Shown piece by piece: positions 3,303 to 54,771 of a stretch of 64,000 bases of DNA. Made by a program: the position numbers and the translations under genes. Each line of letters opens with the position of its first letter. The first letter of the stretch is position 1. Source of the DNA: Methanoplanus sp. FWC-SCC4 (GTDB lineage Archaea; Halobacteriota; Methanomicrobia; Methanomicrobiales; Methanomicrobiaceae). The notes beneath the pieces were generated by a model. It ran no database searches and had not been told where the DNA came from. It saw only the letters and a list, made by a program, of their open reading frames with translations. The stretch is from assembly GCF_032878975.1 (NCBI RefSeq), contig NZ_CP043875.1:1108370-1172369 (forward strand), in the 5' to 3' direction.

Positions 3303-3679
3303 GAAAAGAAATTAAACCAGATATCTACAATTAGTTATTCAGATATTATTTGTGAAACTTCTTTGCTTATTGATATTATCCGGATTATTTCATGGATTTA
3401 AGTACTTTTTTAAGACAGGATAATTAAATCCGGATTTTCATTTTTAATTATTTCCAGGATATTTAATGTAAATTACAAAATCAGATAGAAATAATCATTT
3501 TTTAAAATAAATCACAGATTAATATAAAAAATGTTTTTCATCTAACCTTTTGGTTAGCCCATATATCAACACTTTACAGAGCAGGTATCAGAGCAATCTC
3601 TGCTTCTTAATAAATTAAACCTCCATTTTTGTAATCAGGCACTGGTTCCTAAAAATAAATTTATAAAAAGTTGATTAAA

Positions 3680-4915
3680 ATGAGAGAGTCTTTGATTAAA
3701 AATAAAAAAAGAATTTTCACCATTCTTATCTTTGCTATGTTTTTTGCGGCAGTACCTCTGGTCTCGGCATCTGATATTTCAACAATCCAGACCGGCAGCA
3801 ATGCAAAAGACTTCATATCAGTTACTGATGTCAAAGTTTCACCTGAAGTCTTCATGCCGGGAGATTCCGGCACTATCAAAGTAACTATCCAAAACACAGG
3901 AATAAACAGTGTGGATATTAACCGTGCAAAAATTTACAGCAAAGATGTTTCGGTAATGTCTGACGGGGAATATGATACCGTAGGATCTCTCGGACCGGGA
4001 AACAAAATGGATTTCACATTTACAATAAAGGCAAAACAATCCAATGGAATCAATTACCCGGATTTTTATCTTGATTTTTCAGGAAGCGGAAGTCTGAATT
4101 ATCCGGTTCCCGTAAAAGTTGAAGATAAAGAAATTCTCATTTCAGTCACGGAAAAACCGGATACATTCTCAAAAGGAAAAAAAGATAAAATCATTCTGAC
4201 TATTGCAAATCCACGGGAAAATGAAATAAACGGGATAAACATACTACCCTCTTCAGACTCGGCAGAATTTTCACAGACAGGCAGATTTATTGGATCTCTA
4301 AAACCAGACGAGTCAAAAACAATAGAATTTGAGATTACACCTGAAAATGAAGGAGAAGCAGTTTTTTTTGCAAATTATAAAAACGGAATGAATGATCACA
4401 TCTCAAAAATTAATATTCCACTGAATTTTGGAAAAGACAAAAAAAGTGCGGAACCTGTTTTAAACAACATAATCACAGAATACGGACGAATGACAGGAGA
4501 TATTACAAACAGCGGACTTGAGGAAGCAAAATCGGTTATAGTAACAGTAAAAGAACCGGCAGTTCCAAAAGAGCCGTACCCCGTATATGTTGTAGGATCG
4601 CTCGAACCGGACGATTTCTCAGGATTTGAAATTACTTATGACTCCAATGGAGAATCAAAAATCCCGCTGGTTGTAAAATACAAAGATAAAGACGGCAACA
4701 ACTATGAATTTGTTCAAAATATCAACACAGACCAGTCAGAACTAACAATGGCTGTATCTAAAAATTCACAGGAAAATTCTGCATCAGCCAAAGCCGAACA
4801 AAGCGGAGGATCTCCAATAGTTCTGCTCATCTTAACGGCAGTAGTTGCTGGTATCGGGTACTGTGCTGTAAAAAAAACCGGGTTACTAAGTAAAAAAAGG
4901 TGTAAACCCGAATGA
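3680..4915 (+). CDS. Exported CARDB/S-layer-like surface protein
   Basis: About 411 residues with an N-terminal signal peptide (MRESLIKNKKRIFTILIFAM, cleavage likely after VSA), a long extracellular part and one C-terminal membrane helix (SPIVLLILTAVVAGIGY) followed by a basic tail. The extracellular part holds repeated beta-rich units such as DSGTIKVTIQNTGINSVDI and KGKKDKIILTIANPRENEI, like the CARDB/COG1361 domains of archaeal surface proteins. A TTG nine bases upstream is also in frame, but the ATG at 3680 is the better start; no strong ribosome-binding site is seen. A TATA-like TTTATAAAA lies close upstream. The stop overlaps the ABC ATPase start, so it probably works with that transporter as the external component. 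Substrate unknown. Confidence 0.75.
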   Translation: MRESLIKNKKRIFTILIFAMFFAAVPLVSASDISTIQTGSNAKDFISVTDVKVSPEVFMPGDSGTIKVTIQNTGINSVDINRAKIYSKDVSVMSDGEYDTVGSLGPGNKMDFTFTIKAKQSNGINYPDFYLDFSGSGSLNYPVPVKVEDKEILISVTEKPDTFSKGKKDKIILTIANPRENEINGINILPSSDSAEFSQTGRFIGSLKPDESKTIEFEITPENEGEAVFFANYKNGMNDHISKINIPLNFGKDKKSAEPVLNNIITEYGRMTGDITNSGLEEAKSVIVTVKEPAVPKEPYPVYVVGSLEPDDFSGFEITYDSNGESKIPLVVKYKDKDGNNYEFVQNINTDQSELTMAVSKNSQENSASAKAEQSGGSPIVLLILTAVVAGIGYCAVKKTGLLSKKRCKPE

Positions 4916-5592
4916 CAAACAATTCAGAACCGGCCATCAGGCTTGAAAATGTGATTAAGGTTTATCCCCTCCCCTCAGGAGATGTGACTGCCCTTAAAGG
5001 AATCAATATCTCAATTAAAAAAGGAGAGTTCGTTGCAATCATGGGTCCGTCAGGTTCCGGTAAATCAACTCTCCTAAACCAGATTGGAAGCCTCGATGTC
5101 CCCACATCAGGAGACCTCTACATAGGAGGCATCAATATCAGAGAGATGAGCGATGATGAATTAACTGAAATGAGAAGGGATAATATCGGGTTCATATTTC
5201 AAAAATTCAATCTGATTCCTCTGTTAAGCATCTATGAAAATGTGGAATATCCACTCATTCTCCAAAAGAGAAAAAGGGATTCGGAAAGAAAAGCGGAAAA
5301 ACTTCTGGAAATGGTCGGACTTGCCGGTTCAATTATAAATCACAAACCCACCGAAATATCCGGAGGACAGCAGCAGCGTGTGGCAATCGCAAGGGCGCTA
5401 ATAAACGATCCGAAAATTATCCTTTGTGACGAACCTACCGGAAACCTGGATTCTGCAACAAGCGAACAGATTATGGAAATATTAACGAGGTTAAACAGAC
5501 AGGGCAAAACAGTAATAATGGTAACTCATGATCCTGAAACCGCCGGATATGCCACTCGGACAATTGTAATCAGAGACGGACTGGTAGCATGA
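4912..5592 (+). CDS. ABC transporter ATPase, MacB/LolD type
   Basis: A 226-residue cytoplasmic ABC ATPase. Walker A is GPSGSGKST, the signature is [14 protein letters not shown] and Walker B is [15 protein letters not shown], followed by the H-loop MVTHDPE. The sequence pattern is that of the LolD/MacB/FtsE group, which power mechanotransmission transporters rather than classic importers. It overlaps the preceding surface-protein gene by 4 bp and the permease gene by 4 bp, so the three genes form a translationally coupled unit. Confidence 0.93.
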
Positions 5593-6779
5593 TATTCACC
5601 GATATCTTTTTTGACCTCTCTTTAAGAAATGTCAGGCTGAATTTTGTCAGATCTATTCTGGCGGCAACAGGCATTGTGATAGGTGTTATTGCAATAACAT
5701 CCATTGGAATTCTCGGGGCGAATATGTCCTTGTCAGTCACACAGAGCCTTTCAGATTCAGGAAATGTCTTAAGCATATACCCAAACGGAGCATATGATCC
5801 GGATGAAACATACATATCAAAATCCGATCTTAAAACAATAGAACGAGTCTCAGTTCCAAACACTGTAATTCCTTTTTATGTCAACTATGACTCAATAACT
5901 ACCGGTTCTGAAAAATCATCTGCACAGATATATGGAATTGAAGAGTCCGACATTCAAAAGCTTATAGAGAAACTTGACGACGGATATTATCCAAAAAGTT
6001 CAAACTCTGTATTAGTCGGGCATTCACTTGCAGAAACTTATAAACTCAAAGCAGGGAGCAGAATAAAAATAGGAAGCAGAGATAAGGGAAACCAAAAAAA
6101 TGTCAGGGTTAGCGGAATTATCTCGGAAACAGGAATGTCACTGGGACTTGGAACGGACAATGCAGTTGTCATAACAGACAAAATATACAACCAGATGTAT
6201 GACAAAGAAGGGAAATACGATCAGATAAACGTAATCCTGAGAGATATTGAAAGTGTTGACGAAGTAAAGGAAAAAATTGAGAATGCAATAAACAAAAACA
6301 AAAAAGACAGTGCAGTCGACAAAATCTATGTCTTCGATGCAGCAGGATTCCTTGAGGGAATAAAAGACGTACTTGGAGCAATCACCGGATTTTTAAGCGC
6401 AATTGGCGGAATATCACTCCTTGTTGCCGCAGTATCCATATTCAATGTAATGATGATGTCAGTCACCGAAAGAATCAAAGAAATAGGGATTTTAAGAAGC
6501 ATAGGCACAAAACGAAAAGAGATAAGGCGGATGTTTTTATATGAGGCATTCATCCTGGGTCTTGGCGGATCAATAATCGGTGCTTTGATAAGTGTCATTT
6601 TTGGTTATCTTGCAGTATTACTGCTTTTACAGGACACAAATTATTTCTTTACAATAGACAGCCTGTTATCTGTCCCAATTGGAATATTTATAGGTACTTT
6701 TGTCTGCGTATTATCAGGTGTTTACCCTGCATGGAAAGCATCAAAGCTTGATCCAATAAAAGCACTGGCAACAGAATAA
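5589..6779 (+). CDS. ABC transporter permease, MacB/FtsX type
   Basis: A 396-residue permease with the MacB topology: one N-terminal helix (about residues 20-40, SILAATGIVIGVIAITSIGI), a large external domain (about 45-265) and three C-terminal helices (about 270-390). The conserved FtsX-domain segment VTERIKEIGILRSIGTKRKE and the end segment YPAWKASKLDPIKAL are diagnostic. With the ATPase and the CARDB-like protein it probably exports or repositions a surface molecule, or transmits a signal across the membrane. Substrate cannot be read from sequence. Confidence 0.92.
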   Translation: MIFTDIFFDLSLRNVRLNFVRSILAATGIVIGVIAITSIGILGANMSLSVTQSLSDSGNVLSIYPNGAYDPDETYISKSDLKTIERVSVPNTVIPFYVNYDSITTGSEKSSAQIYGIEESDIQKLIEKLDDGYYPKSSNSVLVGHSLAETYKLKAGSRIKIGSRDKGNQKNVRVSGIISETGMSLGLGTDNAVVITDKIYNQMYDKEGKYDQINVILRDIESVDEVKEKIENAINKNKKDSAVDKIYVFDAAGFLEGIKDVLGAITGFLSAIGGISLLVAAVSIFNVMMMSVTERIKEIGILRSIGTKRKEIRRMFLYEAFILGLGGSIIGALISVIFGYLAVLLLLQDTNYFFTIDSLLSVPIGIFIGTFVCVLSGVYPAWKASKLDPIKALATE

Positions 6780-6810
6780 TAATACTTCAAATAAACTATA
6801 TTGAACAATT

Positions 6811-7593
6811 ATGTCTGAAGATGAAGATCCAAAAACAATTTTTATTGAAAGTGATGATGAGTTTTTCGAAGAACTTTCAGACTACCTTGATGCATTATCA
6901 AACCCGACAAGACTTAAAATTTTAAAGTCTATCGAAAAAAAGCCAAAAGATGTCAGGGAGATATCTTACGATATCGGAATAAGCTATGAAAATACAAAAA
7001 AACATATTCAAAAACTTCATCTTGCAGGAGTTATCAAAAAGGAAACCGGTCTTTCAGGGAGGAAATCAAAAGGAGTCCACCCCGTATGGAAATATTCCAT
7101 TATGCCAGGAGGTCTGGACTCAATTTTTAAAAATCTTCAGATCTTCGGGGACATAAATCTAATACCGAATAGCCAGGTTTTCGAAAATAAAATTAAAGAT
7201 CTTAAGGCAAAACTCTCCGAAGAGTTAACAACGGAAAATCCAGTAATATTCATAGTGGGAGGGCCTGAAGATGGAACAGCATATCCAATAAATGCCGGAA
7301 AAATAAGAATAGGGCGTTCCAATTCAGATCAGACATATCTGCAGGAAAAAGGAGACATTGTATTTTCGGAATTTTACGGGGCGGTATCAAGAATTACAAA
7401 GCCTCATTGCTATATCCACAAAGAAGCCAGTTCATGGTATATTGAAGACGTGGCAAGTACTGGCGGCACTTATCTGAATGATAAACTCCTCGAAAAGGAA
7501 ATCCGTTATGAATTATCTGACGGAGATGTCATAGAACTCTCCAGAGGCGCAAGAAGCGGCAGATTCATTTTTTCAAATCCCAAATCAGAATAA
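6811..7593 (+). CDS. Winged-helix transcription regulator with FHA domain
   Basis: 260 residues. Residues about 22-90 form an ArsR-like winged helix (LSNPTRLKILKSIEKKPKDV, then YENTKKHIQKLHLAGVIKKE). Residues about 145-255 form a forkhead-associated domain: IRIGRSNSD, then SRITKPHCYIH, then STGGTYLND, which gives the Gly-Arg-Ser, Ser-Arg, His and Asn positions of the phosphothreonine pocket. FHA domains bind phosphothreonine peptides, so this regulator is probably controlled by a Ser/Thr kinase, and one is encoded next on the same strand. HTH-FHA fusions are uncommon; the coupling to the neighbouring kinase is an inference from context. Confidence 0.85.
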   Translation: MSEDEDPKTIFIESDDEFFEELSDYLDALSNPTRLKILKSIEKKPKDVREISYDIGISYENTKKHIQKLHLAGVIKKETGLSGRKSKGVHPVWKYSIMPGGLDSIFKNLQIFGDINLIPNSQVFENKIKDLKAKLSEELTTENPVIFIVGGPEDGTAYPINAGKIRIGRSNSDQTYLQEKGDIVFSEFYGAVSRITKPHCYIHKEASSWYIEDVASTGGTYLNDKLLEKEIRYELSDGDVIELSRGARSGRFIFSNPKSE

Positions 7594-7704
7594 GTTAAAT
7601 CAAAAAATTATCATTCACAGTTCATTTTTTTATAATTAAGTTACAAATAACTAAAGCAGATATATCCATGTGGTGTTATTCTGTCATTTGAAAGAAAATT
7701 ATAT

Positions 7705-9231
7705 TTGGATTTTTTTTTACTGTTGACAATACTAGCACTGGCTGTCATTCCCGTATCTGCAGAAGAAAGTGTCGATAATTACGGATTTTCAGTTAAGATG
7801 GACAACAATTCTCTAAACATTACCTCTTCGGATGATGATTACCAGAAATATATGCAGAACTTTAGTTCAAACATACTTCTTCTGGTCATTTTATGTCTCT
7901 CAGGAGTATTCCTATACGCAATAAATGCTCTGGGAAATAAATATTCATCAAGATTCAGATATAAAGAAAGATTTTCCCTGAGGGTTTTTTTAATACCTGT
8001 CTATTCCATAATGGGAATATTATTGCTGATATCATCGCTTTTTTCAATAGCTTCAGTCGGAACGGTCAGTGATACAACAGAGAATTCTATAATGTTTATG
8101 TATTCCCTGATGCTCTTTTTATATGCCATAACTTCGATATGGATGGCATATTCAATTGTCAAAAAAAAGCCGTATATTTTCATATTAATTTTTGAAATAG
8201 CAATTCCTGTACTAATCCAGATTTTATTCATAGGAGACGGATACAAAGATTCTCTCGAACTTGCATCAGATGCAGGTATAACCTTCATTTTACTAATGAT
8301 TCCTGTAATTCACACAAGAATGCTGGAATTAAAACCAGAGTACAAACTAAAAAATAAAAAAATCAGTGATGAGGACAAAAACAAAACACTGACAATTGAT
8401 AAAAACGAAGCCGCAATATTAATGCAGACAAAAAAAAGCAATTACCTGCCTGCCGAATTAACCGAAAGATACATGGATGCCAGATACATCAAAAGAGGAG
8501 GAACCGCAAGAGTATTTTTTGCTAAAACAAGAGATACCGGAAAGACTGTTGCGGTGAAAATCCCGATAAGCTTTGATGAAAGAACAGGGCGAAGCTTTCT
8601 AAAAGAGATGAATATATGGGAAGAACTATCTCATGAAAATATTGTAAGGGTATTTTCAGTAAACATACTTCCTGTCCCTTATGTAGAGATGGAATACTTC
8701 AAAAATTCCCTTGCTGACGTTTCAAAACCGGTTGAACCTGATTTTGCACTTAAAATAATAAAAGGAATTGCAGAAGGCCTCTCTTATGCACATAATGCAG
8801 GAATTATCCACAGAGACATCAAGCCTCAGAATATTCTGTTGTCTGATGAAAACATTCCAAAAATCACCGACTGGGGCCTTGGTAAAATTCTGGGAGATTC
8901 TGCCGAGACAAGAACACTTGCTTTCTCACTGAATTATGCCGCTCCGGAACAGGTAGCTCCAAAAACATTTGGAAGAAGCGACAACAGAACAGATATATTC
9001 CAGCTTGGAATTTTATTCTACGAACTTATGACAGGCTCACTCCCCTTTTCAGGAGAAGGTATAGGAGAGTTCAGCAATGCGATTATTAATGACAACCCTA
9101 AAAAACCATCACAAATAAATCCGGAAGCAAAAAAGTTTGACAGGATTATTTTAAAATGCCTTCATAAAAATCCTGATGAGCGTTATCAGACAATAAATGA
9201 TCTGATAAGAGATCTTGATAAATTAAAATAA
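7705..9231 (+). CDS. Membrane-bound Ser/Thr protein kinase
   Basis: 508 residues. The N-terminal 210 residues contain about five to six membrane helices, including a signal-like first helix ending VSA. The kinase domain starts near residue 258: glycine-rich RGGTARVF, catalytic Lys in VAVKIP, the catalytic loop HRDIKPQN, DWG in place of the usual DFG (KITDWGLGKIL), and the activation/P+1 segment LNYAAPEQ. It ends at residue 508 without the extracellular PASTA repeats of bacterial Hanks kinases. The start is a TTG; no ATG is in frame nearby, and no stop separates it from codons further upstream, so the true start is unsure. It follows the HTH-FHA gene and its stop lies 1 bp from the stop of a convergent gene. 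Confidence 0.88.
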   Translation: MDFFLLLTILALAVIPVSAEESVDNYGFSVKMDNNSLNITSSDDDYQKYMQNFSSNILLLVILCLSGVFLYAINALGNKYSSRFRYKERFSLRVFLIPVYSIMGILLLISSLFSIASVGTVSDTTENSIMFMYSLMLFLYAITSIWMAYSIVKKKPYIFILIFEIAIPVLIQILFIGDGYKDSLELASDAGITFILLMIPVIHTRMLELKPEYKLKNKKISDEDKNKTLTIDKNEAAILMQTKKSNYLPAELTERYMDARYIKRGGTARVFFAKTRDTGKTVAVKIPISFDERTGRSFLKEMNIWEELSHENIVRVFSVNILPVPYVEMEYFKNSLADVSKPVEPDFALKIIKGIAEGLSYAHNAGIIHRDIKPQNILLSDENIPKITDWGLGKILGDSAETRTLAFSLNYAAPEQVAPKTFGRSDNRTDIFQLGILFYELMTGSLPFSGEGIGEFSNAIINDNPKKPSQINPEAKKFDRIILKCLHKNPDERYQTINDLIRDLDKLK

Positions 9232-10472: not shown

Positions 10473-11231
10473 TCAGTTATTATTGTAAATCTTATTCTCT
10501 TCAGGCATAATCAACAGAAATTCATCCGAATAGTCAAGAGAAATAAAACCTGTCTCAAAAGTAAAGTCAATTATATGACCTCCGAATTCTCTTTTTTCAT
10601 CAATAAAATGAAGATGAAAACCCTGAGCATTTAAACCCGACATATAATCAGGATGCCAAAAGCCGGTTGCCGTACCTGTAATTTCCTTTGCTTCAAAAAT
10701 ATTTTCACTCATGCTTAATGCCTCACTTAAAGGCACATAAGGCATCTCCTGACGGGCAACACTTCTGGCCTTAACTTCCGAATATTTCCCATCTATTCTT
10801 ATTGTGCAAATCCTGTTATTCAATGTGAGATTTTCCTGCATAAGATTTTTTATCTCTGAAAAATTCATTGAATCTCTTATCTCAAAAACAGAATCAGGAT
10901 TAAAACGGGTAACCTCTGCAAAAGGAGATGTCTCTTTTGAATCAACCAGGGTAACACTCCCATCACTTTTTATCTGAAAATATTCCCCGCCTGCTGCAAC
11001 CATCTCCCCGTCAAGATGATCAAATGTTCCAAGACCTGTATCGCCCATATTCATAATAGCGCCGTATGAAACAGTACCGTTGTAATTTCCTTCAATCAGA
11101 TTTTCAAGAGTTGAAACCTGACAGATTCTGTCCTCATCCGGTACTCCCGACGGATTAAATGTAATTACAGCAGATACAAAAAAAATCACTGCCACCGCTG
11201 CACCAAAGCCAAGGAGGTACTGTTTTTGCAT
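10473..11231 (-). CDS. budA: Alpha-acetolactate decarboxylase, membrane anchored
   Basis: 252 residues. Residues about 7-25 form an N-terminal signal/anchor helix (LLGFGAAVAVIFFVSAVI). The rest matches acetolactate decarboxylase, which turns 2-acetolactate into acetoin and CO2. Motifs include GTFDHLDGEMV and the zinc-ligand set His206, His208 and His219 (GFHLHF, then GGH). The predicted active domain lies outside the membrane, which is odd for an enzyme whose substrate is an intracellular branched-chain amino acid intermediate. It lies 5 bp downstream of dph6 in the minus-strand sense of the region, and may be co-transcribed with it. Confidence 0.88.
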   Translation of the reverse strand: MQKQYLLGFGAAVAVIFFVSAVITFNPSGVPDEDRICQVSTLENLIEGNYNGTVSYGAIMNMGDTGLGTFDHLDGEMVAAGGEYFQIKSDGSVTLVDSKETSPFAEVTRFNPDSVFEIRDSMNFSEIKNLMQENLTLNNRICTIRIDGKYSEVKARSVARQEMPYVPLSEALSMSENIFEAKEITGTATGFWHPDYMSGLNAQGFHLHFIDEKREFGGHIIDFTFETGFISLDYSDEFLLIMPEENKIYNNN

Positions 11232-39592: not shown

Positions 39593-40615
39593 TCACCGCA
39601 AATCCATCCTCATAAACCTGACATATGCGATTCCGAAAAAGACCACAGGATACGCAATTAAAATCAGTAAATTGCCCCATATCTTTCCAAAGATATCATC
39701 AAAATCAATTCCCATCTGTGAATAATCAAGAAACTGAAATTCATCAGCACCTTTAAAAGCCCAAAAAAATGAGGGTTTTGTCAAAGCTGTTCCAATGGTG
39801 TAATAATTATTTTTTATCGAAAGATATTCTATAGTATTTTCAATCATTTTTTGATTGGTGTAATATTTTCTTTCCTCTTCGAGATTTGCAAAACCAAATC
39901 CATTATTATCAACAGATGACGGTTCCGGACCAAGTATCAGAATACTTACAGAAGGTGCAATAATGGATGCAATATATGTAAAAATAAAAAATAATATCAG
40001 CGAATAAATCAGTGATGTTCCGCTGTTTTTTGTCAGTGACGAGACCATAAGGGCCATTGCAAAAATACCTGTAAGGAAAATAATTGTCACTGCACATAAT
40101 CCTGAAATTGAGATAAAATCATCCATTGAAGGAACTATACTCAATAAAAGAAGCGAGGCAGTAACAATAACAAAAAGACCAACAGTAGCAAAAGACAATG
40201 CTGCAATACCACCAATTGCCTTTCCATTGATCAGTTCATCCCTATAGAGAGGATGTGAAAGTACAGATTTTATTGATCCTGATTCCCTCTCTTTTGTAAT
40301 CAGATTAAAACCGGCTGCAATTGCAATAAGAGGGCCAAAAATATAGCCCCCAAGTCCGGAGACAATCCCATAATAAATATTCACAGGAGAAGGATTGTAC
40401 ATAGCTCCCCCATAATGCATGACCCCGTTCTCATCGATATATGTACTTCCGGAATTGGCATATGATTCCAGTTCATTATTATAGGTCTGAACTTCACTAA
40501 TTACTGAAACTCCGGCGATAATAACAAGCATAGCAAAAAGTATGAGAAACTTTCTGCCCGAAACCTGATCAAAAAATTCTTTTTTTGCAACTGTAATTAA
40601 TCTTTCAACATTCAA
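39593..40615 (-). CDS. Cassette A: ABC-2 permease of NosY type (permease B)
   Basis: About 340 residues. The start chosen is TTG at 40615, eight bases after GGGAGG, giving MNVERLITVAKKEF, which lines up with permease B of the other cassettes. About six membrane helices with one larger external loop before the last. The NosY-like signature is FNLITKERESGSIKSVLSHP followed by YRDELINGKAIGG. The C-terminus FFGIAYVRFMRMDLR is almost unchanged among the copies. It probably pairs with the neighbouring permease A and ATPase. Last gene of its cassette. Confidence 0.88.
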   Translation of the reverse strand: MNVERLITVAKKEFFDQVSGRKFLILFAMLVIIAGVSVISEVQTYNNELESYANSGSTYIDENGVMHYGGAMYNPSPVNIYYGIVSGLGGYIFGPLIAIAAGFNLITKERESGSIKSVLSHPLYRDELINGKAIGGIAALSFATVGLFVIVTASLLLLSIVPSMDDFISISGLCAVTIIFLTGIFAMALMVSSLTKNSGTSLIYSLILFFIFTYIASIIAPSVSILILGPEPSSVDNNGFGFANLEEERKYYTNQKMIENTIEYLSIKNNYYTIGTALTKPSFFWAFKGADEFQFLDYSQMGIDFDDIFGKIWGNLLILIAYPVVFFGIAYVRFMRMDLR

Positions 40616-40629
40616 TTTAACAACCTCCC

Positions 40630-41643
40630 TCACCTCAGATCAAGTCTCATAAACCGCACATATGCAATCCCAAAAAAAATGACCGGAAACATAACCAAAG
40701 CAGATATTTTTAGCCAGACATCTCCCAGTATTTCATAAACAGAAGGCTCCTCTGCCAGAAGATTCAGATTATCTCCCCCGGCCATATTCAGGCGATACAG
40801 ATAGGAGGTTGTTCTTGTAAACGGTTCTGTCAGTCCTGAAAAAACCCTTTGTATTGAAAATACTGAGAAAGCATCATTCATAGCCATTTTTTGATTGAGG
40901 TATTCGATTCTTAGATCCTGGTAATACTGAAGTTCACTGGCTGACATATCAGATCCATCAGCCAGGTAGACAGTTTTTGGTTCATCTCCAAGAACCAGAT
41001 GACTCAGCAGTTCAGGTCCGGCAACAGGAAGCAGATATGATACTACAAAAAGTATAAACAGGGAAATAATCAAAGCTCCACTGCTGCTTTTGCAAACTGC
41101 CGAGGCCATTAATGCAAGAGAAAAGTTAGCAATGAGAAATAACAAGATCAAAAACCAGATTACACAGATTTTTCCTAAAGAATTTATATCCGGAACAATT
41201 CCACCGAGAAGCATTAACGCAAATATAATTACAAATACTATTGTTTCTGCAAATATCAATGAGATTATTCCGCCAAGGGCTTTTCCATTTATCACCTCAT
41301 CACGATAGACCGGATGTGAAAGAAGAGATTTTAATGAACCTGACTCTCTCTCACCTGAAATTAGGTTAAAACCCAGTGCTATGGCAACTATTGCCCCAAA
41401 ACCATAATATCCCAGATTTTCAGTTATATTTCCAAATATAATCACCGGTGTCGGGGGGATCTGGAATATCTGATCGTTTCCGGACTTATATAATTCAAGA
41501 GCATTATAATATTCATTTATCCCGTCAAATGCACCAATTCCAACTGCAAGTGAAAGGAGAAGGAGAAGAAGAAAAAATTTTCTGCTTACAAGGTTACCAA
41601 TGAACTCCTTTTTCGCAACAATAAGAACTCTATCGGCATTCAA
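40630..41643 (-). CDS. Cassette A: ABC-2 permease of NosY type (permease A)
   Basis: About 337 residues from the TTG at 41643 (MNADRVLIVAKKEF), nine bases after GGAGGG. Paralogue of permease B; the diagnostic difference is LISGERE in place of LITKERE (FNLISGERESGSLKSLLSHP). About six membrane helices; the external loop before the last helix is long. Ends FFGIAYVRFMRLDLR. Begins 4 bp after the ATPase stop. Confidence 0.88.
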   Translation of the reverse strand: MNADRVLIVAKKEFIGNLVSRKFFLLLLLLSLAVGIGAFDGINEYYNALELYKSGNDQIFQIPPTPVIIFGNITENLGYYGFGAIVAIALGFNLISGERESGSLKSLLSHPVYRDEVINGKALGGIISLIFAETIVFVIIFALMLLGGIVPDINSLGKICVIWFLILLFLIANFSLALMASAVCKSSSGALIISLFILFVVSYLLPVAGPELLSHLVLGDEPKTVYLADGSDMSASELQYYQDLRIEYLNQKMAMNDAFSVFSIQRVFSGLTEPFTRTTSYLYRLNMAGGDNLNLLAEEPSVYEILGDVWLKISALVMFPVIFFGIAYVRFMRLDLR

Positions 41644-41647
41644 AACA

Positions 41648-42553
41648 TCACTCCCTCCTGTAAACATTTAAGAATAATTCTTCGAGTGCAGGACTCTCAA
41701 GATGCATCTCAATTATCCCGAAATCTTTTCTCAACAGATCGGACAGCTCATTTCTGATATCTTTCTGCGTATAAATTACAGCATGGTTGCCATCAATCTC
41801 AATTTTCTCAATATTGGGATCTTTTATTTCAGGAAGTGTTTCTTTTGTCTCTAAAATTATCTTTAATGGAATCTTACTCTTTTCGATAAGCTGTTTTTCA
41901 ACTTCTTCAACCGATCCCCTTGCAACAAGTTCACCCTGGGACAATATCCCAAGGGTTTTGCAGACCTGTTTTATTTCTGACAAAACATGGGAGCATATCA
42001 GTATGGTTTTTCCCTCTTCTGACAGCTGCCTTATAATTTCTCTGAACTGAAATACTCCTTCCGGATCAAGATTGGCTGTCGGTTCGTCAAGAATTACCAC
42101 TTTAGGATCGTTTAAAAGCGCCTGTGCAAGGCCGAGGCGCTGGTTCATTCCCCTGGAATAACCACCAACAGTCTGGGTGACGTCCTTTAACCTGACAAGT
42201 TCAAGAAGAGAAGCTATTCTTTCTCTTCTTATTTTAGAAGACATAGGGTAAAACTTACCAACATAGTCCAGATTCTGCTCAGCGGTTAGATTCCCATAAA
42301 ATCCCACATCTTCAGGCAAATAACCGATTATCTCTTTTGCTTTTAATGGATTTCGTGCAACATCTATCCCGTCAACAAGGCAGTTTCCGGATGTGGGCTC
42401 AATCATTCCTGTAAGCATCAGAATTGTCGTACTTTTTCCGGCACCATTCGGGCCCAAAAACCCGAATACTTCACCGTCCCCAACTTCAAGATTTAGATTA
42501 TTTACAGCTGCCTTTTCCCCGTAAACTTTTGTTAGATTTCTGGTTGTGATCAT
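41648..42553 (-). CDS. Cassette A: ABC transporter ATPase
   Basis: 301 residues. Walker A GPNGAGKSTT, signature YSRGMNQRLGLAQAL, Walker B VVILDEPTANLDPEG and H-loop CSHVLSE. This is the CcmA/NatA group that drives ABC-2 exporters such as NosFY and bacteriocin or antibiotic immunity pumps. The last 90 residues form a C-terminal domain ending in SPALEELFLNVYRRE. Homologous ATPases are in cassettes B and D. Confidence 0.93.
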   Translation of the reverse strand: MITTRNLTKVYGEKAAVNNLNLEVGDGEVFGFLGPNGAGKSTTILMLTGMIEPTSGNCLVDGIDVARNPLKAKEIIGYLPEDVGFYGNLTAEQNLDYVGKFYPMSSKIRRERIASLLELVRLKDVTQTVGGYSRGMNQRLGLAQALLNDPKVVILDEPTANLDPEGVFQFREIIRQLSEEGKTILICSHVLSEIKQVCKTLGILSQGELVARGSVEEVEKQLIEKSKIPLKIILETKETLPEIKDPNIEKIEIDGNHAVIYTQKDIRNELSDLLRKDFGIIEMHLESPALEELFLNVYRRE

Positions 42554-42619
42554 AAAACCCCTGCTCCGAAATTATTCAATTTAATTTTTATTTCTAAAGT
42601 TATTATCACAAACAACCCC

Positions 42620-43759
42620 TCACTGGAAATATTTTTTAAGATAATCTATCTGAATACCCTTGTAACTAAGGCGAAGAACCTCTCCTGTATGGGCATCAAC
42701 AATTGAATACGAGTTATAATAAGAATTATCTCCCACATTACCTGTTTTCGATTCCATTTCCAAAAACCAGATTAAACGAACAGGTAAGGTATTATCGCTG
42801 TAGACCGGCATTCCTGTGTCCCAAAAAGGATCTGCAGTTCCAGATTTCTCTTCTTTGTATATCCCACCAGTCTTATCTTTACATGTAATGTCTAAATTTT
42901 GTGCTTCACCGGGATATTCTTCATTTATCTGTGATTCAACTATTTTTTTTGCTTCATCAAATGTGACGTCAGGAACTTCTGATGCAAATGTAAGATTTTG
43001 AAGATCAGGAATAGTAAAATGACATTCCACTACTTTTCCGGTAATAGAATCAATAAAAACTAATAATGTTGCTGCATGACAAGGCAGTTCGTTATGAGTA
43101 ATCAGATAATGTACCAGTATCTCCGGGGCTTTTCCTTTCTGCTTTAGTTCTGTAAGATTTTCTGTATATCCCGACGAAATTATAGCTGGAAAAAGATTTC
43201 CCGGGCTTTCTCCAAGTGCCTTTGTTATAAAGGTCTTTGCAATAGATTCTGCATCATCAAATGTGATATTGACACTGCCGTCTGGATAAACAAAGCCCGA
43301 GGATCTATATACTGTACGTATTTTACCTGTTTCAGCATTGATTCTTGCTGTATATACAGTAGATGATGACTTTGTTTTGATATGTTCATATGTATAAATG
43401 GTTTTATTTGGAAATGTAGCGTCTGCACCTTCCCATGGAATAGTATTTTCTACTGTTTTTGGAATAAAATCAGGGAATAATTCCAGAATATATTCGCTAT
43501 AACCACGGAAGGTTTCTTTTAAGCTTTTAGATTCTCCTGTGCTTTTTTCAGGAGCAACTGTTTCATCCAGTTTCTTATCATAAGTATTGGTTAATTCATC
43601 AGGAGTAACTGTCCCTTTATCTAAGGTATTATTTTCATTATTAGTCCAGGAAGTGCAACCGGAACAGAGGCAGAAAAATATCATCAGTATAAATAAGAAC
43701 AGATGCACAAAAGGTATCCATCCGTTTTTTTTGATCAAATGTGTAAATTTTATTAACAT
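42620..43759 (-). CDS. Cassette A: PepSY-like lipoprotein
   Basis: About 379 residues from the ATG at 43759, eleven bases after GGAGG; an ATG six codons upstream overlaps that site. The signal ends in CLCSGC, a lipobox-like sequence. The outer part has two related halves with PepSY/YcdB-like units: VNITFDDAESIAKTFITKAL, DVTFDEAKKIVESQINEEY and the terminal VDAHTGEVLRL. Such domains often inhibit proteases or bind envelope partners. It lies between the small secreted protein and the ATPase. Function here unknown. Confidence 0.8.
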   Translation of the reverse strand: MLIKFTHLIKKNGWIPFVHLFLFILMIFFCLCSGCTSWTNNENNTLDKGTVTPDELTNTYDKKLDETVAPEKSTGESKSLKETFRGYSEYILELFPDFIPKTVENTIPWEGADATFPNKTIYTYEHIKTKSSSTVYTARINAETGKIRTVYRSSGFVYPDGSVNITFDDAESIAKTFITKALGESPGNLFPAIISSGYTENLTELKQKGKAPEILVHYLITHNELPCHAATLLVFIDSITGKVVECHFTIPDLQNLTFASEVPDVTFDEAKKIVESQINEEYPGEAQNLDITCKDKTGGIYKEEKSGTADPFWDTGMPVYSDNTLPVRLIWFLEMESKTGNVGDNSYYNSYSIVDAHTGEVLRLSYKGIQIDYLKKYFQ

Positions 43760-43825
43760 AACATCAATATCCTCCATATTGTAATTGTTTGACTTATGCC
43801 CTCATATTTAAAAAAAGGATTAAAA

Positions 43826-44212
43826 TTAAGTATTAATTCTGAAATAAGCAGTGTCACTGTAAGCAGGACCTACACTTGATGCATATACTTTATCTGTATA
43901 ATATGTACCTGATATAGCAGAATAATAATAATGACTACTTGTTGAAACAAAATTTGTGTTTGATAATGTGTAAGTTCCTGTATTAGCTACTGATCCCCCG
44001 CCACTGTTAAGTAAAGTAGCGCTTACACTTATACGATCAAAACTGTCATACAAAGAACCCGCCTGTCCGTAATAAGTAATTACGCTACCGGAAAAACTAC
44101 CTCCACCCAATGCATCAATACCAACTGCACTAGCAGGTCCGACAAGAGCAGCACCTGCAACAAGCATCATCGCAAGGAGGATGCCAATTTTTTTGAAGTT
44201 AAATTTCTTCAT
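43826..44212 (-). CDS. Cassette A: small secreted cargo-type protein
   Basis: 128 residues from the ATG at 44212, preceded by GGGTGAAG; an ATG five codons earlier would remove that site. The signal peptide MKKFNFKKIGILLAMMLVAG-AALVGPASA is shared with four other genes in the window. The mature part, about 100 residues, is rich in Gly, Ser, Tyr and Thr with alternating beta patterns (SVITYYGQAGS, RISVSATLLNSGG, SSHYYYSAISGTYYTD) and no Cys. It resembles the mature part of the cassette C protein but is strongly diverged. Family not recognised. Confidence 0.75.
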   Translation of the reverse strand: MKKFNFKKIGILLAMMLVAGAALVGPASAVGIDALGGGSFSGSVITYYGQAGSLYDSFDRISVSATLLNSGGGSVANTGTYTLSNTNFVSTSSHYYYSAISGTYYTDKVYASSVGPAYSDTAYFRINT

Positions 44213-44590
44213 TTTTTCTTCACCCATTTAAGATTTTTCCTATGCTTTTTTAAATTCTGAAGAGATTTTAAATTAGGATTTGTGTATGCCTCGTGCATAT
44301 CCCTTTTTGTAATTTTAAAAATCCCAGAGTATCACAGGAGTATCTCTGAGATATCTTAAGAGATTTTAAAGACGGATGCACAAAATCCCTTCAGCACGGG
44401 GGGCTTTTGTTTTTCAGCCAAAAAGAAAATATACAAGTGAGTGTAAAATAAAGTAAATTTGATCTATTAATTTACACTTACAGATCCAAACTTTCTTTTT
44501 GAACAATGAAGAGACTGGTACTCTCCTCACTGTTCCCCGGTTAAAACTTGAAAGTATTTATTTAAACGTCTTACGCCACAATACTTTACA
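44213..44590 (-). repeat. Conserved leader/promoter repeat, copy 1
   Basis: About 370 bp of non-coding DNA that recurs, nearly unchanged, before all five secreted-protein genes (copies start at 44213, 49151, 51231, 56475 and 59226). It contains short inverted repeats (ATCTCT...AGAGAT; GGATATGC...GCAT...ATCC; GAGA...TCTC) and runs from the shared promoter to the ribosome-binding site. With the TATA box at 44557-44566 the transcript would carry a leader of about 320 nt. Such a long, conserved leader suggests an RNA-level function, or recent duplication, or both. Confidence 0.85.
44557..44590 (-). promoter_or_regulatory. Cassette A promoter: TATA box and 22-bp shared motif
   Basis: On the minus strand the motif with core TGTAAAGTATTGTGGCGTAA (44569-44590) is followed directly by TTTAAATAAA (TATA, 44557-44566). 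The same motif stands in front of five other genes. Its place just upstream of the TATA box suits an activator. Confidence 0.75.
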
Positions 44591-44802
44591 TATTTTTTTA
44601 TTGGGATTTTTTTATTGTGAGGGATTTTTTTAATGTGTTTTCAAAATACGGGAATATCATCAAAAAATATAATTCACATCCCTAATTTAAGGAAAAATTC
44701 CGGCCGTACAGATAAAAATACTATTTATGCCATATTTATTAGAGACAAAAAAAGATATCTCTAAAAAAATATTTGCGGTGAAAATTAGTCGGACAGATAA
44801 TT
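44591..44802. repeat. Inter-cassette spacer
   Basis: About 210 bp between permease B of cassette B and the promoter of cassette A. Parts recur at 51608-51802 and partly at 56850-57060 (for example AATTCACATCCCTAAT, ACAGATAAAAATACTATTTA and AAAAAAATATTTGC). The spacer therefore was duplicated together with the genes. Confidence 0.7.
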
Positions 44803-45789
44803 TCACCGCAAATCCATCCTCATAAATCTGACATATGCGATTCCGAAAAAGACCACAGGATACGCTATTAAGAAGAGAATATTGCCCCATACTCTACCAA
44901 GCATATCTAAAATATCCGGTTCAAAATCCGGATTATTCTGCCCGTTTGCCTGATTCTGAATATACCGTTTTGGTTCAGTCAGGGCTGTTGAGAGTTTCCG
45001 GTAATTGGTATCATATGACACATAAAAAACCAGGTTTGTAAGCTCCATCTGTTTTTGATAGTAGGTATTTGACTGCTCATAAAATTCACTTATTTCCAAA
45101 GCATCCATATTTTCTATGTTAATTGACGGCCTGGGACCTGTTATTACATCAACTGCAAAACTACCTGTTGAATATATTACACTTGTCAGGATCAAAAGCA
45201 GCAGCAGTGAATATATAAACGACATTCCACTTGTACTGGAAAATGACGAAACCATAACGGACATAACAAAAATTCCGGTCAGGTAAAGAATGGTTACAAG
45301 CCAGAATGCAAATATGAATACCAGTTCATCTAATCCCGGAACTATGCCGTAAAGGAGAAGAAGACCAAGGGTAAGCATAAAAACAACAGTCACTGCAAAT
45401 ATGATTGCAATAATTCCGCCCAGGGCTTTTCCGTTTATAATTTCATCCCTGTAGACAGGAACTGAAAGCATGGCTTTCATTGAACCGGTTTCTCTCTCTT
45501 TTGTAATCAGGTCAAAGCCGAGTACAACCGCAATTATTGATCCGAATATTGAGCTGCCTGCAATCCCAAGCATTATTCCGCTGAATATATTCATGGCACG
45601 GGGCATTCCAAAAAGAGAATAGCCAACAGAACTGTATTTTTCAATGTCTTCAAAATAACTCACGATATCCTTAAACACATATATTCCTGCGATTGTAAGC
45701 ATCAGGAAGAGAAGTGCAAGAAAACGCCGGCTGGTTACATGATCCTGAAACTCTTTTAATCCAATCAGGGTGATTCTCTTAAAATTCAT
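44803..45789 (-). CDS. Cassette B: ABC-2 permease (permease B)
   Basis: 328 residues, ATG preceded by GAGGTG. FDLITKERETGSMKAMLSVP and YRDEIINGKALGG identify it as the permease B type. About six membrane helices. Ends FFGIAYVRFMRMDLR. The last 15 codons and the following bases are almost the same as in cassettes A and D, which points to recent duplication or gene conversion. Starts 3 bp after the permease A stop. Confidence 0.88.
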   Translation of the reverse strand: MNFKRITLIGLKEFQDHVTSRRFLALLFLMLTIAGIYVFKDIVSYFEDIEKYSSVGYSLFGMPRAMNIFSGIMLGIAGSSIFGSIIAVVLGFDLITKERETGSMKAMLSVPVYRDEIINGKALGGIIAIIFAVTVVFMLTLGLLLLYGIVPGLDELVFIFAFWLVTILYLTGIFVMSVMVSSFSSTSGMSFIYSLLLLLILTSVIYSTGSFAVDVITGPRPSINIENMDALEISEFYEQSNTYYQKQMELTNLVFYVSYDTNYRKLSTALTEPKRYIQNQANGQNNPDFEPDILDMLGRVWGNILFLIAYPVVFFGIAYVRFMRMDLR

Positions 45790-45792
45790 AGT

Positions 45793-46809
45793 TCACCTCA
45801 GATCCATCCTCATAAATTTCACATACGCAACAGAGAAGAACAGAACAGGCCACATGATAAAGACAATAATTTTGATCCATTTATCCCCGATAATCTCCCA
45901 AAAGGTCGGTTTTTCAACATTTTCAGCAAGATCAGGATTAAGTGCAAAATCAACGTGTCCTATTTTTTCAGTAATTACGTAATGAGAAGGCAGGGTTATT
46001 GCACTTGCAATATTATTATACACACTTCTTACTGAGAACATATTAAAAAAATCGTGAATTTCTAACCTTTTTTGTTCATATTCTGCCTGAATACTTTCAA
46101 AAGAATCCTTTTGAAACTGCGAGCCTGAATTATAACTGCTATCTGACGGTTCTGCCCCAAGAAGAAGAGACGAACCAAATGCACCTCCACCTACAGGTAT
46201 TATGTACGTCAATGTAACAAAAATCAGAATTGAAAGAATAAGTGCTCCGCTGCTTGTTTTAGCAAGAACAGATGACATTAATGCAAGTGAAAAACTGTAA
46301 GCCATAAAAAGCATTGTAAGAAGCCAGATTACACCAATTAAAAATATTTCATCAAGAGAGGGAACAATTCCAAGTATGAGTAAAATTGCAACAACAATCA
46401 AGAATCCAAGAAAAGAAATAATTCCAATAGTGGCTATACCCCCAATTGCTTTTCCGTTTATAAGTTCGTCCCGATACATGGGGCGGGACAATATAGTTTT
46501 TAATGTTTTGCCTTCTCTTTCACCTGAAATCAGATCAAACCCTATTGCAATACCAATAACGGCTCCAAGGCCATAAAGACCAAAGGAATTTGTAATCTCT
46601 CCAAATGCTCTAAGTACTGAAGGAAAGAACAAAAAACCAACTTCTCCGTTTTTATAGCTTTCAAGTGCATTATTGTAGTTGTTAACCCCATTTGCAGCCG
46701 CGATTCCTAGAACAAGACAGGTTATTACAAGAATTAACAGGAATCTTCTGCTGGTTATATGATCGGACATTTCCTTATGTGAGATTGTTGCCAGGCGGGT
46801 AAGGTCCAA
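45793..46809 (-). CDS. Cassette B: ABC-2 permease (permease A)
   Basis: 338 residues, starting at TTG (MDLTRLATISHKEMSDH) eight bases after GGAGGG. The LISGERE type is confirmed by FDLISGEREGKTLKTILSRP. Six membrane helices; long loop between the fifth and sixth. Ends FFSVAYVKFMRMDLR. It follows the ATPase by 3 bp. Confidence 0.88.
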   Translation of the reverse strand: MDLTRLATISHKEMSDHITSRRFLLILVITCLVLGIAAANGVNNYNNALESYKNGEVGFLFFPSVLRAFGEITNSFGLYGLGAVIGIAIGFDLISGEREGKTLKTILSRPMYRDELINGKAIGGIATIGIISFLGFLIVVAILLILGIVPSLDEIFLIGVIWLLTMLFMAYSFSLALMSSVLAKTSSGALILSILIFVTLTYIIPVGGGAFGSSLLLGAEPSDSSYNSGSQFQKDSFESIQAEYEQKRLEIHDFFNMFSVRSVYNNIASAITLPSHYVITEKIGHVDFALNPDLAENVEKPTFWEIIGDKWIKIIVFIMWPVLFFSVAYVKFMRMDLR

Positions 46810-46812
46810 TTT

Positions 46813-47736
46813 CTACTCCCTCCTGTATACTTTAAGGAATAAATCTTCAAGACCGGGCCTGTCAAGGTACATCTCAGTAATTCCGAAGCATTTGTCTTTT
46901 AGCTCTTCTGCAAGAGATTCTCTGATGTCTTTTTTTACCCGGATTTCAACTCCGTTTTCAATTCTTTCAACTCCTAATATTTCAGGGTTTGATATTGATT
47001 CTATGAAGCTGTAAACTTCCGGGTTTATAGATCTGATTACAATCTTCTGAGAAGTATTACTCTGTAAAATGAGTTCATCCTCAACCTCTTCAACTGAGCC
47101 CCTTGCAACGAGTGTTCCCTGCGAGATTATTCCAAGTGTTGTGCAGACCGCACGAACCTCTGAGAGGATATGTGAACAGATAAGGACAGTTTTACCTTCT
47201 TTTTCAAGTTTTTTTATTATCTCACGGTATCTTAATACACCTTCTGGATCAAGGTTTGCAGTCGGTTCATCAAGAATTACTACTTTTGGGTCATTTAGTA
47301 AAGCAAGAGCAAGACCAAGACGCTGGTTCATTCCACGTGAATATTCACCAACTTTTTGCGGCACATCATTTAATCTTACACTTTTCAGGAGGATTTCGAT
47401 TCTCTCTTCCCTCTCACTTTTTGTCAGGGGGTAGAATTTACCCAGGTAATCGAGGTTTTCATATCCGGTGAGATTTTTGTAAAAACCGACATCCTCAGGA
47501 AGATATCCTAAGATTTCTTTTCCTTTAAGAGGATTTAATGCAACATTTACGCCTTGAATTGTGCAGTTTCCCGATGTCGGCTCAATCATTCCGGTGAGCA
47601 TAAGAATTGTTGTACTCTTACCCGCACCGTTCGGCCCTAAAAAGCCGAATACTTCTCCGTCTCCAACCTCTAAATTGAGATTATCAACAGCTTTTTTCTC
47701 GTTATACTCTTTTACAAGATTTTCAGTTTTTATCAT
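46813..47736 (-). CDS. Cassette B: ABC transporter ATPase
   Basis: 307 residues, closest to the cassette D ATPase. Walker A GPNGAGKSTT, signature YSRGMNQRLGLALAL, Walker B VVILDEPTANLDPEG. The middle and N-terminal parts are almost the same as in cassette D, whereas the C-terminal 80 residues differ more. GGGGG precedes the ATG. Confidence 0.93.
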   Translation of the reverse strand: MIKTENLVKEYNEKKAVDNLNLEVGDGEVFGFLGPNGAGKSTTILMLTGMIEPTSGNCTIQGVNVALNPLKGKEILGYLPEDVGFYKNLTGYENLDYLGKFYPLTKSEREERIEILLKSVRLNDVPQKVGEYSRGMNQRLGLALALLNDPKVVILDEPTANLDPEGVLRYREIIKKLEKEGKTVLICSHILSEVRAVCTTLGIISQGTLVARGSVEEVEDELILQSNTSQKIVIRSINPEVYSFIESISNPEILGVERIENGVEIRVKKDIRESLAEELKDKCFGITEMYLDRPGLEDLFLKVYRRE

Positions 47737-47901
47737 TGTTTCCCCCTTCTTCCCCCGTCTTTCCTTTTATTCGGGCATGATCAATCTTACAATTCCCTAT
47801 TATTTTTTAATTTCATAAAACGATTATAAGTCAAAAGCCAAACGGAAAGTCTAATTGAATAATTTTCAAAACAACTTTTAAAATAAAGGAAATTAACCAT
47901 T

Positions 47902-49038
47902 TTATGAAATCCTGAGATCCCTGAATAAAAGGGAAATTATCTCACCGGTGTGTGCATTTATAATTGCAGTAGTTGTCATCCGGGCATCTAGTCTTCGCAT
48001 CTCATTATCGTTGAATGATAAGTACCATATCAGCCTTATTGGCTCTGGGTTGTTGGAATAAACAAATTCATTTAGATCATACCAGTTGAGAGAGTTTTCA
48101 TGGTCATTTTCACTATAGTACTGTATATTCAGTTCTTCATCAGGATAGCTCTCTTTTAATTTATCTTCCAGGATTTTTTTCGCCTTGCCTAGCGGAATAG
48201 TTGGTACTGCTGAAAGGGTCATGAGATCCTTCATCAATTCAGGTTCCTTTAACTCATCCCAGTATCTGAAGACTCTGTCTTCAATAAGGTCATAATGAAC
48301 ATATATCTGATCATTCAAGCAAGGTACATCCTGATACATTTTATAGTACAGTAACACAGAAAGTCCATCGCCAATTGTTGAATCTGTATCTGCTTTATAG
48401 AGAGAAAACTCATCCATATTTTCTTCAACAAAATCGTTTCCTTTTACCTCCCTTATAAATTCCAGGGCTCTTTCTTCAGCTTCGTTTAAAGAGACAGCCC
48501 TTATCTCCTCTTTCTTAGGAGGGACTCTGGATTGAGGTCCATAAAACACTATATCTCCGGATACCGGACTAACTTTGATAGTCACAATATTATTTTGAAT
48601 ATTTTGCTCAAGTCCCTTCCATCTGATCTTTTGGGTTTCCAGGAATTTTTCGGATGTATCGTCCACGTTATAGAAAACAATTACAGGAGGGCCATTAATT
48701 CCGACATAGGAATATTTTGAGTAACGATCTTCCCAATTCCCTTCAAGTGTCGAACTGTCCACATTGGGAAATATTCTTACGATTTCATCTTTTGCCTTTT
48801 CTATCAGTTCCTGTTTTGTCTGTTCATCATATTCGGGAGAGTAATCCTTCGATGATACAACTGGTTTTGTGTTTTCTGACATAACCTGTTGAATTGTTTC
48901 ATTTGCTACTAATTCTGGCGACAAAACCTGATTGTTCTCCGGCTGGTTCGAATTAATCGTACATCCAGAAACCAGAACTGTAAAGAATAAACATAAGGCT
49001 ATCATAAAAATTCTTTTTTTTTTAAATTTTTTCTTCAT
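47902..49038 (-). CDS. Cassette B: PepSY-like lipoprotein
   Basis: About 378 residues from the ATG at 49038; a longer in-frame start overlaps the remnant gene upstream. The lipobox is VLVSGC. Related to the other cassette lipoproteins: YDEQTKQELIEKAKDEIVRI, SSTLEGNWEDRYSKYSYVG, VSLNEAEERALEFI, IPLGKAKKILEDKLKESYPD, then INAHTGEIISL. About 165 bp separate it from the ATPase gene. Confidence 0.82.
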   Translation of the reverse strand: MKKKFKKKRIFMIALCLFFTVLVSGCTINSNQPENNQVLSPELVANETIQQVMSENTKPVVSSKDYSPEYDEQTKQELIEKAKDEIVRIFPNVDSSTLEGNWEDRYSKYSYVGINGPPVIVFYNVDDTSEKFLETQKIRWKGLEQNIQNNIVTIKVSPVSGDIVFYGPQSRVPPKKEEIRAVSLNEAEERALEFIREVKGNDFVEENMDEFSLYKADTDSTIGDGLSVLLYYKMYQDVPCLNDQIYVHYDLIEDRVFRYWDELKEPELMKDLMTLSAVPTIPLGKAKKILEDKLKESYPDEELNIQYYSENDHENSLNWYDLNEFVYSNNPEPIRLIWYLSFNDNEMRRLDARMTTTAIINAHTGEIISLLFRDLRIS

Positions 49039-49042
49039 AAAA

Positions 49043-49150
49043 TCATCTTTTCCGCTTGTAATTGAAAACATAACGCCCTACAAGAGCAGCACCTGCAACA
49101 AGCATCATCAAAAGAAGGATGCCAACCTTTTTGAAATTAAATTTCTTCAT
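49043..49150 (-). pseudogene. Cassette B: truncated secreted-protein gene (signal peptide only)
   Basis: Reads MKKFNFKKVGILLLMMLVAG-AALVGR and then YVFNYKRKR before a TGA, 35 residues in all. The shared signal peptide is kept, but the cleavage site and the whole mature part are gone; its end lies 5 bp before the lipoprotein start. Its leader and promoter remain nearly intact. Most likely a deletion removed the mature part; a functional micro-peptide or a leader reading frame for coupling is possible but unproven. Confidence 0.8.
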
Positions 49151-49519
49151 TTTTTCTTAACCGATTTAAGATTTTTTCTATGCTTTTTAAAATTCTGAAG
49201 AGATTTTAAATTCGGATTTGTGTATGCCTCGTGCATATCCCTTTTTGTAATTTTTAAAATCCCCGGTTATCTCTGAGATATCTTAAGAGATTTTAAAGAC
49301 GGATGTACAAAATCCCTTCAGCATGGGGGACTTTTGTTTTTCAGTCAAAAAGAAAATATACAAGTGAATGTAAAATAAAGTAAATTTGATCTATTAATTT
49401 ACACTTACAGATATCCAAATTTTCTTTTTGAACGGTGAAGAGACTGGTACTCTCATCACTTGTCCCCGGTTAAAACTTGAAAGTGTTTATTTAAACGTCT
49501 TACGCCACAATACTTTACA
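49151..49519 (-). repeat. Conserved leader/promoter repeat, copy 2
   Basis: The second copy of the non-coding leader, now in front of the truncated gene. It is still highly similar to copies 1 and 4 except for a short loss in the CCCGG-TTATCTCTGAG stretch. Its conservation despite loss of the cargo part suggests it still drives the lipoprotein and ABC genes. Confidence 0.82.
49486..49519 (-). promoter_or_regulatory. Cassette B promoter: TATA box and shared motif
   Basis: Same layout as in cassette A: the motif (49498-49519, TGTAAAGTATTGTGGCGTAA core) is followed by TTTAAATAAA (TATA, 49486-49495). Confidence 0.75.
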
Positions 49520-49671
49520 CATTTTTTGCTGACTGAGCTTTTAGAAATGTGTTGTAAAATCATTTACATGTTGGATCTGCTAGAAAAAATGTGAAAATAA
49601 AAGAATATTGTTTTTTAAATTAATTTTATCAAAGAAAATAAGGTTACGAGTGTTCCTTAAAAACTAGTGAA

Positions 49672-51607: not shown

Positions 51608-51802
51608 CATTTTTTTATTGAGAGGGATTTTTTGAATGTGTTTTAAAAATATTGGAATATCATAAAAAAGTCTAATTCACATCCCTAATTAAAGGAAAAA
51701 TGCCGGCCGGACAGATAAAAATACTATTTATGAGCGTATTTATTTGATATGATAAGAGAGATCTCTAAAAAAATATTTGCAGAAAATGAGGAGCAGTTAA
51801 TT

Positions 51803-52807: not shown

Positions 52808-52824
52808 AATCAAAAATCCTCCAA

Positions 52825-53835: not shown

Positions 53836-53838
53836 TCT

Positions 53839-54762: not shown

Positions 54763-54771
54763 ATATGCCCC

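Follow-up and report, generated by a model that had tools for sequence, protein, structure and literature searches.

A membrane Hanks-type kinase and a paired FHA-winged-helix regulator as a candidate phosphorylation switch in Methanomicrobiales

The route from euryarchaeal Hanks kinases to transcription is largely open, and a five-gene locus in Methanoplanus sp. FWC-SCC4 (NZ_CP043875.1; genome of 2.31 Mb, one contig) raises the question of whether a membrane kinase could reach genes through a dedicated FHA-winged-helix protein, and whether the transporter genes beside it are the output. The locus lies at 3680-9231 (+) of the window, as the whole 64,000-nucleotide stretch of DNA analysed is called here. 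Its genes encode a CARDB-domain surface protein (3680..4915, within an open reading frame from TTG 3671; Pfam CARDB, E = 3.6e-8) with a signal-like N-terminus and a C-terminal transmembrane (TM) segment, both read from the sequence, an ABC ATPase of the LolD/MacB type (4912..5592; ABC_tran, 8.7e-36), a permease (5589..6779; MacB_PCD, 1.3e-24, and FtsX, 5.6e-25), an ArsR-type winged helix fused to an FHA domain (6811..7593; 260 aa) and a Hanks-type Ser/Thr kinase (7705..9231; 508 aa; Pkinase, 5.8e-44), all on the same strand. Overlaps of 4 nt join the CARDB, ATPase and permease genes, gaps of 31 nt and 111 nt separate the permease from the FHA gene and the FHA gene from the kinase gene, and this spacing makes a single operon plausible for all five. 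The initial annotation had listed a kinase with a DWG motif, an FHA-winged-helix protein, a MacB-type ABC transporter and a surface protein on one strand, and each of these was recovered with Pfam and NCBIfam profiles and from the sequence itself. The MacB_PCD-FtsX domain type is present in the permease; the scores against the NCBIfam MacB equivalog were 231.9 bits for the ATPase and 91.2 bits for the permease against a cut-off of 966, and the lolCE equivalog gave 84.5 bits against 362, so that "MacB-type" denotes a domain type here. Elsewhere in the window, an acetolactate decarboxylase gene, in a methanogen, adjoins a diphthine-ammonia ligase gene (10473-11231, -), and ABC-2 type transporter gene sets occur in three repeats (39593-55941, -), each with an ATPase gene, two genes of permease size and one for a protein of 385-389 aa that mostly lacks a Pfam match.

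The regulator consists of a winged-helix domain (residues 29-97; 6895..7101, +) and an FHA domain (residues 145-255; 7243..7575, +), both delimited by Pfam, alignment and the AlphaFold model, the latter also by fold matches. The Pfam matches cover residues 31-77 (HTH_5/ArsR, 7.4e-8) and 165-243 (FHA, 1.7e-12), and winged-helix residues S58-H65 (SYENTKKH) are identical in 83/83 aligned sequences. The FHA assignment rests on a Pfam score over the cut-off, fold matches and conservation of the contact residues except position 218: R169, S/T193 (Ser in the window regulator), H199, S216, T217 and N223, the residues expected for phospho-Thr contact, are kept, and the usual STNGT loop is replaced by STGGT, with Gly for Asn at 218 in 62 of 66 non-redundant regulators, a change by which phosphopeptide affinity may differ. 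Using Foldseek, GarA, OdhI and, together with its phosphorylated N-terminal peptide, the FHA domain of DgcB were found among the best matches to the regulator FHA domain. The EmbR structures 2fez and 2ff4 and the ArnA structure 5a8i were matched in both a solved-structure profile search and a fold search, the profile aligning EmbR in its FHA part only. EmbR carries an OmpR-type winged helix and a BTA domain; in the window regulator the DNA-binding part is HTH_5 of the ArsR type and no BTA domain was found with Pfam, which places it outside the EmbR/SARP family.

The window kinase has the sequence features of a Hanks-type (ePK) Ser/Thr kinase, with all catalytic residues present (K285, E301, D371 of HRDIKPQN, N376 and D389) and with DWG at 389-391, i.e., Trp for the Phe of DFG, a replacement common to 71/71 paired kinases examined. 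According to the structure model, a membrane part of five predicted TM helices (residues 42-204; 7828..8316, +) is followed by a disordered juxtamembrane linker (residues 213-243) and, as also given by Pfam, the catalytic domain (residues 256-506; 8470..9222, +). This membrane part stands in place of PASTA repeats; against the PASTA-kinase (PknB/Stk1) profile of NCBIfam the protein scored 194.9 bits, the cut-off being 450, and matched in the kinase domain only.

Association of kinase and FHA genes beyond this locus had been named at the outset as the observation on which the proposal would stand or fall, and it was found throughout the order. In 60 genomes of Methanomicrobiales, each at least 95% complete, all 72 FHA matches are followed on their own strand by a Hanks kinase, the two domains being 413-4968 nt apart (median about 1030), and 71 of the 83 kinase matches below the threshold of E < 1e-30 are paired with an FHA gene. 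Both occur in 46 of the 60 genomes, FHA alone in none and kinases alone in one. The winged-helix-FHA profile matches all 72 FHA hits, 71 of them nearly over full length; the exception is a shorter, diverged tandem copy at L154. In the window genome there are exactly three FHA matches and three strong Hanks kinases (E < 1e-38), forming three adjacent pairs, besides three weaker kinase matches. The second pair, near 43 kb, comprises a PP2C phosphatase, an FHA regulator and a kinase with a beta-helix N-terminal part, and the third, near 332 kb, an FHA regulator and a short kinase. A conserved one-to-one pairing of kinase and regulator genes is thus near certain, and a chance neighbourhood of unrelated genes, practically out of the question, was rejected on the 72/72 same-strand pairs in 60 genomes and the three pairs in one genome. 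The pattern was the same at 80 further loci on named contigs, almost all of which carry the label of this order, the kinase-less cases among them being mostly at contig ends; the scan seeds included a winged-helix motif, and more distant relatives could have been missed. In a wider phylum sample, 38 of the 42 FHA-bearing genomes belong to this order, and in three of the other four (G194, G240, G247) FHA and Hanks kinase share one open frame, whereas here they are separate genes with the FHA domain on the winged-helix regulator. Two observations stand beside these counts: in another genome of the phylum a 589-codon frame carries three FHA domains (G069:C36:15349-16365), and L154:5516-12000 (the same as locus L018) combines a single PP2C and a single kinase with a tandem of winged-helix-FHA genes, of which the second has diverged strongly and may be a decoy or a specialised copy.

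A DNA site for the regulator was sought in the flanks of these pairs. The palindrome TGAACC-N4-GGTTCA was first spotted by inspection of the regions upstream of the transporter cassette, and in the window a perfect 16-bp copy, CTAACCTTTTGGTTAG (3542..3557; core AACC-N4-GGTT), stands 122 nt before the CARDB ATG. In a ranking of all 256 four-base palindromes with an N4 spacer, made without prior use of this one and counting 400 nt upstream of the operon and 600 nt after the kinase, AACC-N4-GGTT ranked first with 34 of 71 loci, the next best reaching 9; the loci in these counts are related, not independent. Among non-redundant loci it was found in 23 of 45 (next best 5), and with one genus (g2) left out in 22 of 43, where 27 sites in 44.5 kb at the loci compare with 19 in 720 kb, a ratio of about 23. 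TGAACC-N4-GGTTCA with at most one mismatch gave 33 matches, permuted half-sites at most 8. The examined sites stand about 93-140 nt before start codons of CARDB or small secreted-protein genes, usually with a TATA-like sequence in between. In the window genome KAACCN4GGTTM has 13 sites (control 4), with at least one at each of the three FHA-kinase loci. About half of the loci lack the palindrome in the flanks examined; GATCTC-N4-GAGATC shared first place, by number of loci, among exact six-base dyads, and counts of upstream seven-mers gave nothing clear apart from A+T-rich words.

The palindrome could instead be an RNA hairpin or a repeat element beside a genuine kinase-regulator pair. Several copies stand right at a kinase stop codon, and in genus g2 TGAACC-N4-GGTTCA is dispersed like a repeat element with a near-constant spacer (16 copies in G001, 22 in G024). 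Against this explanation, copies lie about 93-140 nt before the starts of unrelated genes even where the upstream stop is distant (L119 and the window), and a conserved core with variable flanks recurs in several families; it is considered unlikely, if a serious competitor. A role as terminator is countered by the distance to the downstream starts and by the 368 nt that separate the window copy from the preceding glnK stop. As a genome-wide FHA marker the palindrome count failed, owing to the dispersed repeat of genus g2 and to three copies in the FHA-less genome G054. The balance of these sequence data leans modestly towards the palindrome being an operator of the FHA regulator. Small secreted proteins, some with Cys and with no clear Pfam family, are encoded just behind candidate operators and adjoin FHA-kinase pairs (L177:1657-1968 in the window genome, L128:10802-11086, L016:10232-10513 and L119:6441-6857, the last on the minus strand). 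At L098:11212-12366 a TnpB-like gene (IS200/IS605-type, by eye) separates the kinase gene from a secreted-protein gene at which operator-like sites occur.

The candidate phospho-sites were located by alignment, pLDDT and motif enrichment. One Thr of the regulator tail (T9 in the window regulator; codon 6835..6837, +) is kept in 150 of 152 regulators, a set of two overlapping samples that reduces to 66 at 80% non-redundancy; of the two without it, one is a truncated sequence and the other a diverged tandem copy. The positions around it vary freely (2-3 bits entropy), and it is followed by three mostly hydrophobic residues and then acidic ones. Since residues 1-14 have pLDDT under 50 in the AlphaFold model, the invariant Thr falls in a predicted-disordered stretch, and a location within a structured strand was unsupported. 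This tail is 11-fold enriched in the motif T-phi-phi, phi standing for I, L, V, M or F, and the juxtamembrane linkers of the kinases are 5.2-fold enriched in it, with 35 of 63 non-redundant sequences carrying it (500 shuffles: mean 7.2, maximum 16). S-phi-phi is not enriched in the same 63 linkers (5 against 8.4 expected), nor is T-phi-phi in the remaining regions of regulator and kinase. This preference for Thr over Ser is what FHA recognition would demand. The strict motif is absent from 28 of the 63 linkers, among them that of the window kinase (TLTI), where Thr228 in NKTLTID (8386..8388, +) is, from motif enrichment and the structure model, the candidate autophosphorylation and FHA-docking site.

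Similar tails are known from GarA, OdhI and the Bdellovibrio protein DgcB, which likewise combine a disordered tail, a conserved Thr, a mostly hydrophobic +3 residue and an FHA domain of similar fold. The residue bound in the DgcB tail is Thr14, with a hydrophobic residue at +3 (PMC6733907). The effector parts differ, GarA and OdhI acting on metabolic enzymes of 2-oxoglutarate and DgcB carrying GGDEF, whereas in the present regulator tail and FHA flank a DNA-binding domain; and while all three bind their own tails, for the window regulator we infer such binding. It could also be that the FHA domain only docks the regulator on the autophosphorylated kinase, DNA binding being set by phosphorylation elsewhere or by membrane sequestration and the tail Thr being otherwise employed. 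The T-phi-phi enrichment in kinase linkers is consistent with this, as is EmbR, whose phospho-site T209 lies in the BTA domain and not in a tail (PMC4601284). Against it stand the invariant Thr within a disordered tail and the motif common to tail and linker, and it is judged improbable, though credible. Phosphorylation of the regulator by its partner kinase appears likely, and Thr9 is slightly favoured as the site.

The preferred explanation, considered rather probable, is a linear phosphorylation switch made up of a membrane Ser/Thr kinase and a transcription factor dedicated to it, the FHA-winged-helix protein. Computed support for it comes from the domains, the genomic pairing, the invariant tail Thr, the Thr-specific linker motif and the palindrome enrichment. 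In this switch, the membrane part of the kinase would sense a signal and the kinase would autophosphorylate a Thr of its disordered juxtamembrane linker (T228 here), on which the regulator FHA domain would dock. The kinase would then phosphorylate the invariant Thr9 of the disordered regulator tail, and the FHA domain would bind phospho-Thr9 of its own chain or of a dimer partner, as in GarA, OdhI and DgcB, and thereby change winged-helix binding to DNA. The regulator would act at AACC-N4-GGTT near its own operon, in the window at 3542-3557 upstream of the CARDB-ABC-FHA-kinase genes; in relatives it would also act at sites ahead of genes for small secreted proteins. A PP2C phosphatase would reset the switch; such genes adjoin or stand close to many pairs, including the paralogous pair at 43 kb, and no PP2C gene adjoins the pair at the window locus. 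Away from FHA genes, a second, stronger PP2C gene precedes a partial kinase-like domain at G000:C1:1285048-1286738 (L143, L007, L013), perhaps another phosphorylation locus.

Whether the transporter belongs to the switch has a narrower answer. The initial annotation had proposed a chain that ends in control of the transporter operon, with conservation of the set as a check. Conservation holds for the kinase-FHA pair (72/72) and fails for the CARDB-ATPase-permease cassette, which stands next to the pair, on its strand, at 8 of 72 loci: at five it is upstream (the window, L096, L098, L111, L160) and at three downstream (L100, L108, L112). It is upstream also in the contig loci L017, L049 and L090. 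The closest relative found (L015; 67% identical, with the same amt-glnK context) lacks it, and a constant ABC island was rejected, the cassette standing at a minority of pairs. Similar permeases occur in 60/60 genomes of the order, so the cassette is common and the informative part is that it recurs beside the pair, in two gene orders. Members with an upstream cassette group together in the regulator tree, with weak support, and are not resolved in the kinase tree. Control of the transporter is plausible at this locus, where, as in relatives, a putative operator ahead of the cassette supports the transcription step; it does not extend to the family at 8/72. The transporter operon in the window is probably a target of its own kinase-regulator pair.

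It may also be proposed that the kinase acts directly on the transporter or another protein, the winged helix being a constitutive autoregulator and the palindrome belonging to another factor. Adjacency of cassette and pair in two gene orders would suit this, as would the loose genome-wide tracking of FHA by the palindrome. It is quite improbable, given that the kinase has the FHA regulator, not the transporter, as its one invariant partner, and that the palindrome is concentrated at FHA-kinase loci. The kinase and FHA regulator are read here as a general module with changeable outputs, the window transporter operon being one of them.

Among known systems, PknH-EmbR of M. tuberculosis likewise combines a Hanks kinase with a transcription factor that has an N-terminal winged helix and a C-terminal FHA domain; phosphorylation of EmbR by PknH requires the FHA domain, a PP2C-type phosphatase reverses it, and the targets are envelope genes (PMC4601284). 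The invariant N-terminal tail Thr, the order-wide multi-copy pairing and the archaeal host are features found here and not there. Judged on its anatomy, the locus fits what would be a kinase-to-transcription-factor switch like PknH-EmbR with a tail like that of GarA or DgcB. The Sulfolobus Arn system (ArnA-ArnB/ArnC-ArnD) likewise links an archaeal FHA protein to Hanks kinases in a network with effects on gene expression, but ArnA works with the vWA protein ArnB, the kinase substrates being ArnA and/or ArnB (PMC10470591, PMC4858521), and the system lacks the winged-helix fusion and the one-to-one kinase gene pair present here. An archaeal winged-helix-FHA regulator was not found described in the open-access literature, and prior mention elsewhere is possible; the pairing suggests a complete phosphorylation switch for genes, apparently not yet described. 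The M. hungatei FHA protein Mhun_1501, found at higher abundance in a bi-culture (PMC9275234), is probably a family member.

FHA proteins in archaea have been said to be conserved only in Crenarchaeota (PMC10470591). In contrast, genes for them are present in 46 of the 60 genomes sampled from this methanogen order, and each one in the sample encodes a winged-helix fusion and has a kinase gene next to it. One candidate phospho-site, one docking motif and one DNA site are now named, each testable with purified proteins. On an evenly balanced estimate, the module would be an order-wide counterpart, based on Ser/Thr phosphorylation, of two-component systems: a family in which each sensor kinase has its dedicated FHA-winged-helix regulator, often with a PP2C as well, and in which a tail phospho-Thr switch and the shared operator AACC-N4-GGTT would control envelope genes such as transporter cassettes and small secreted proteins.
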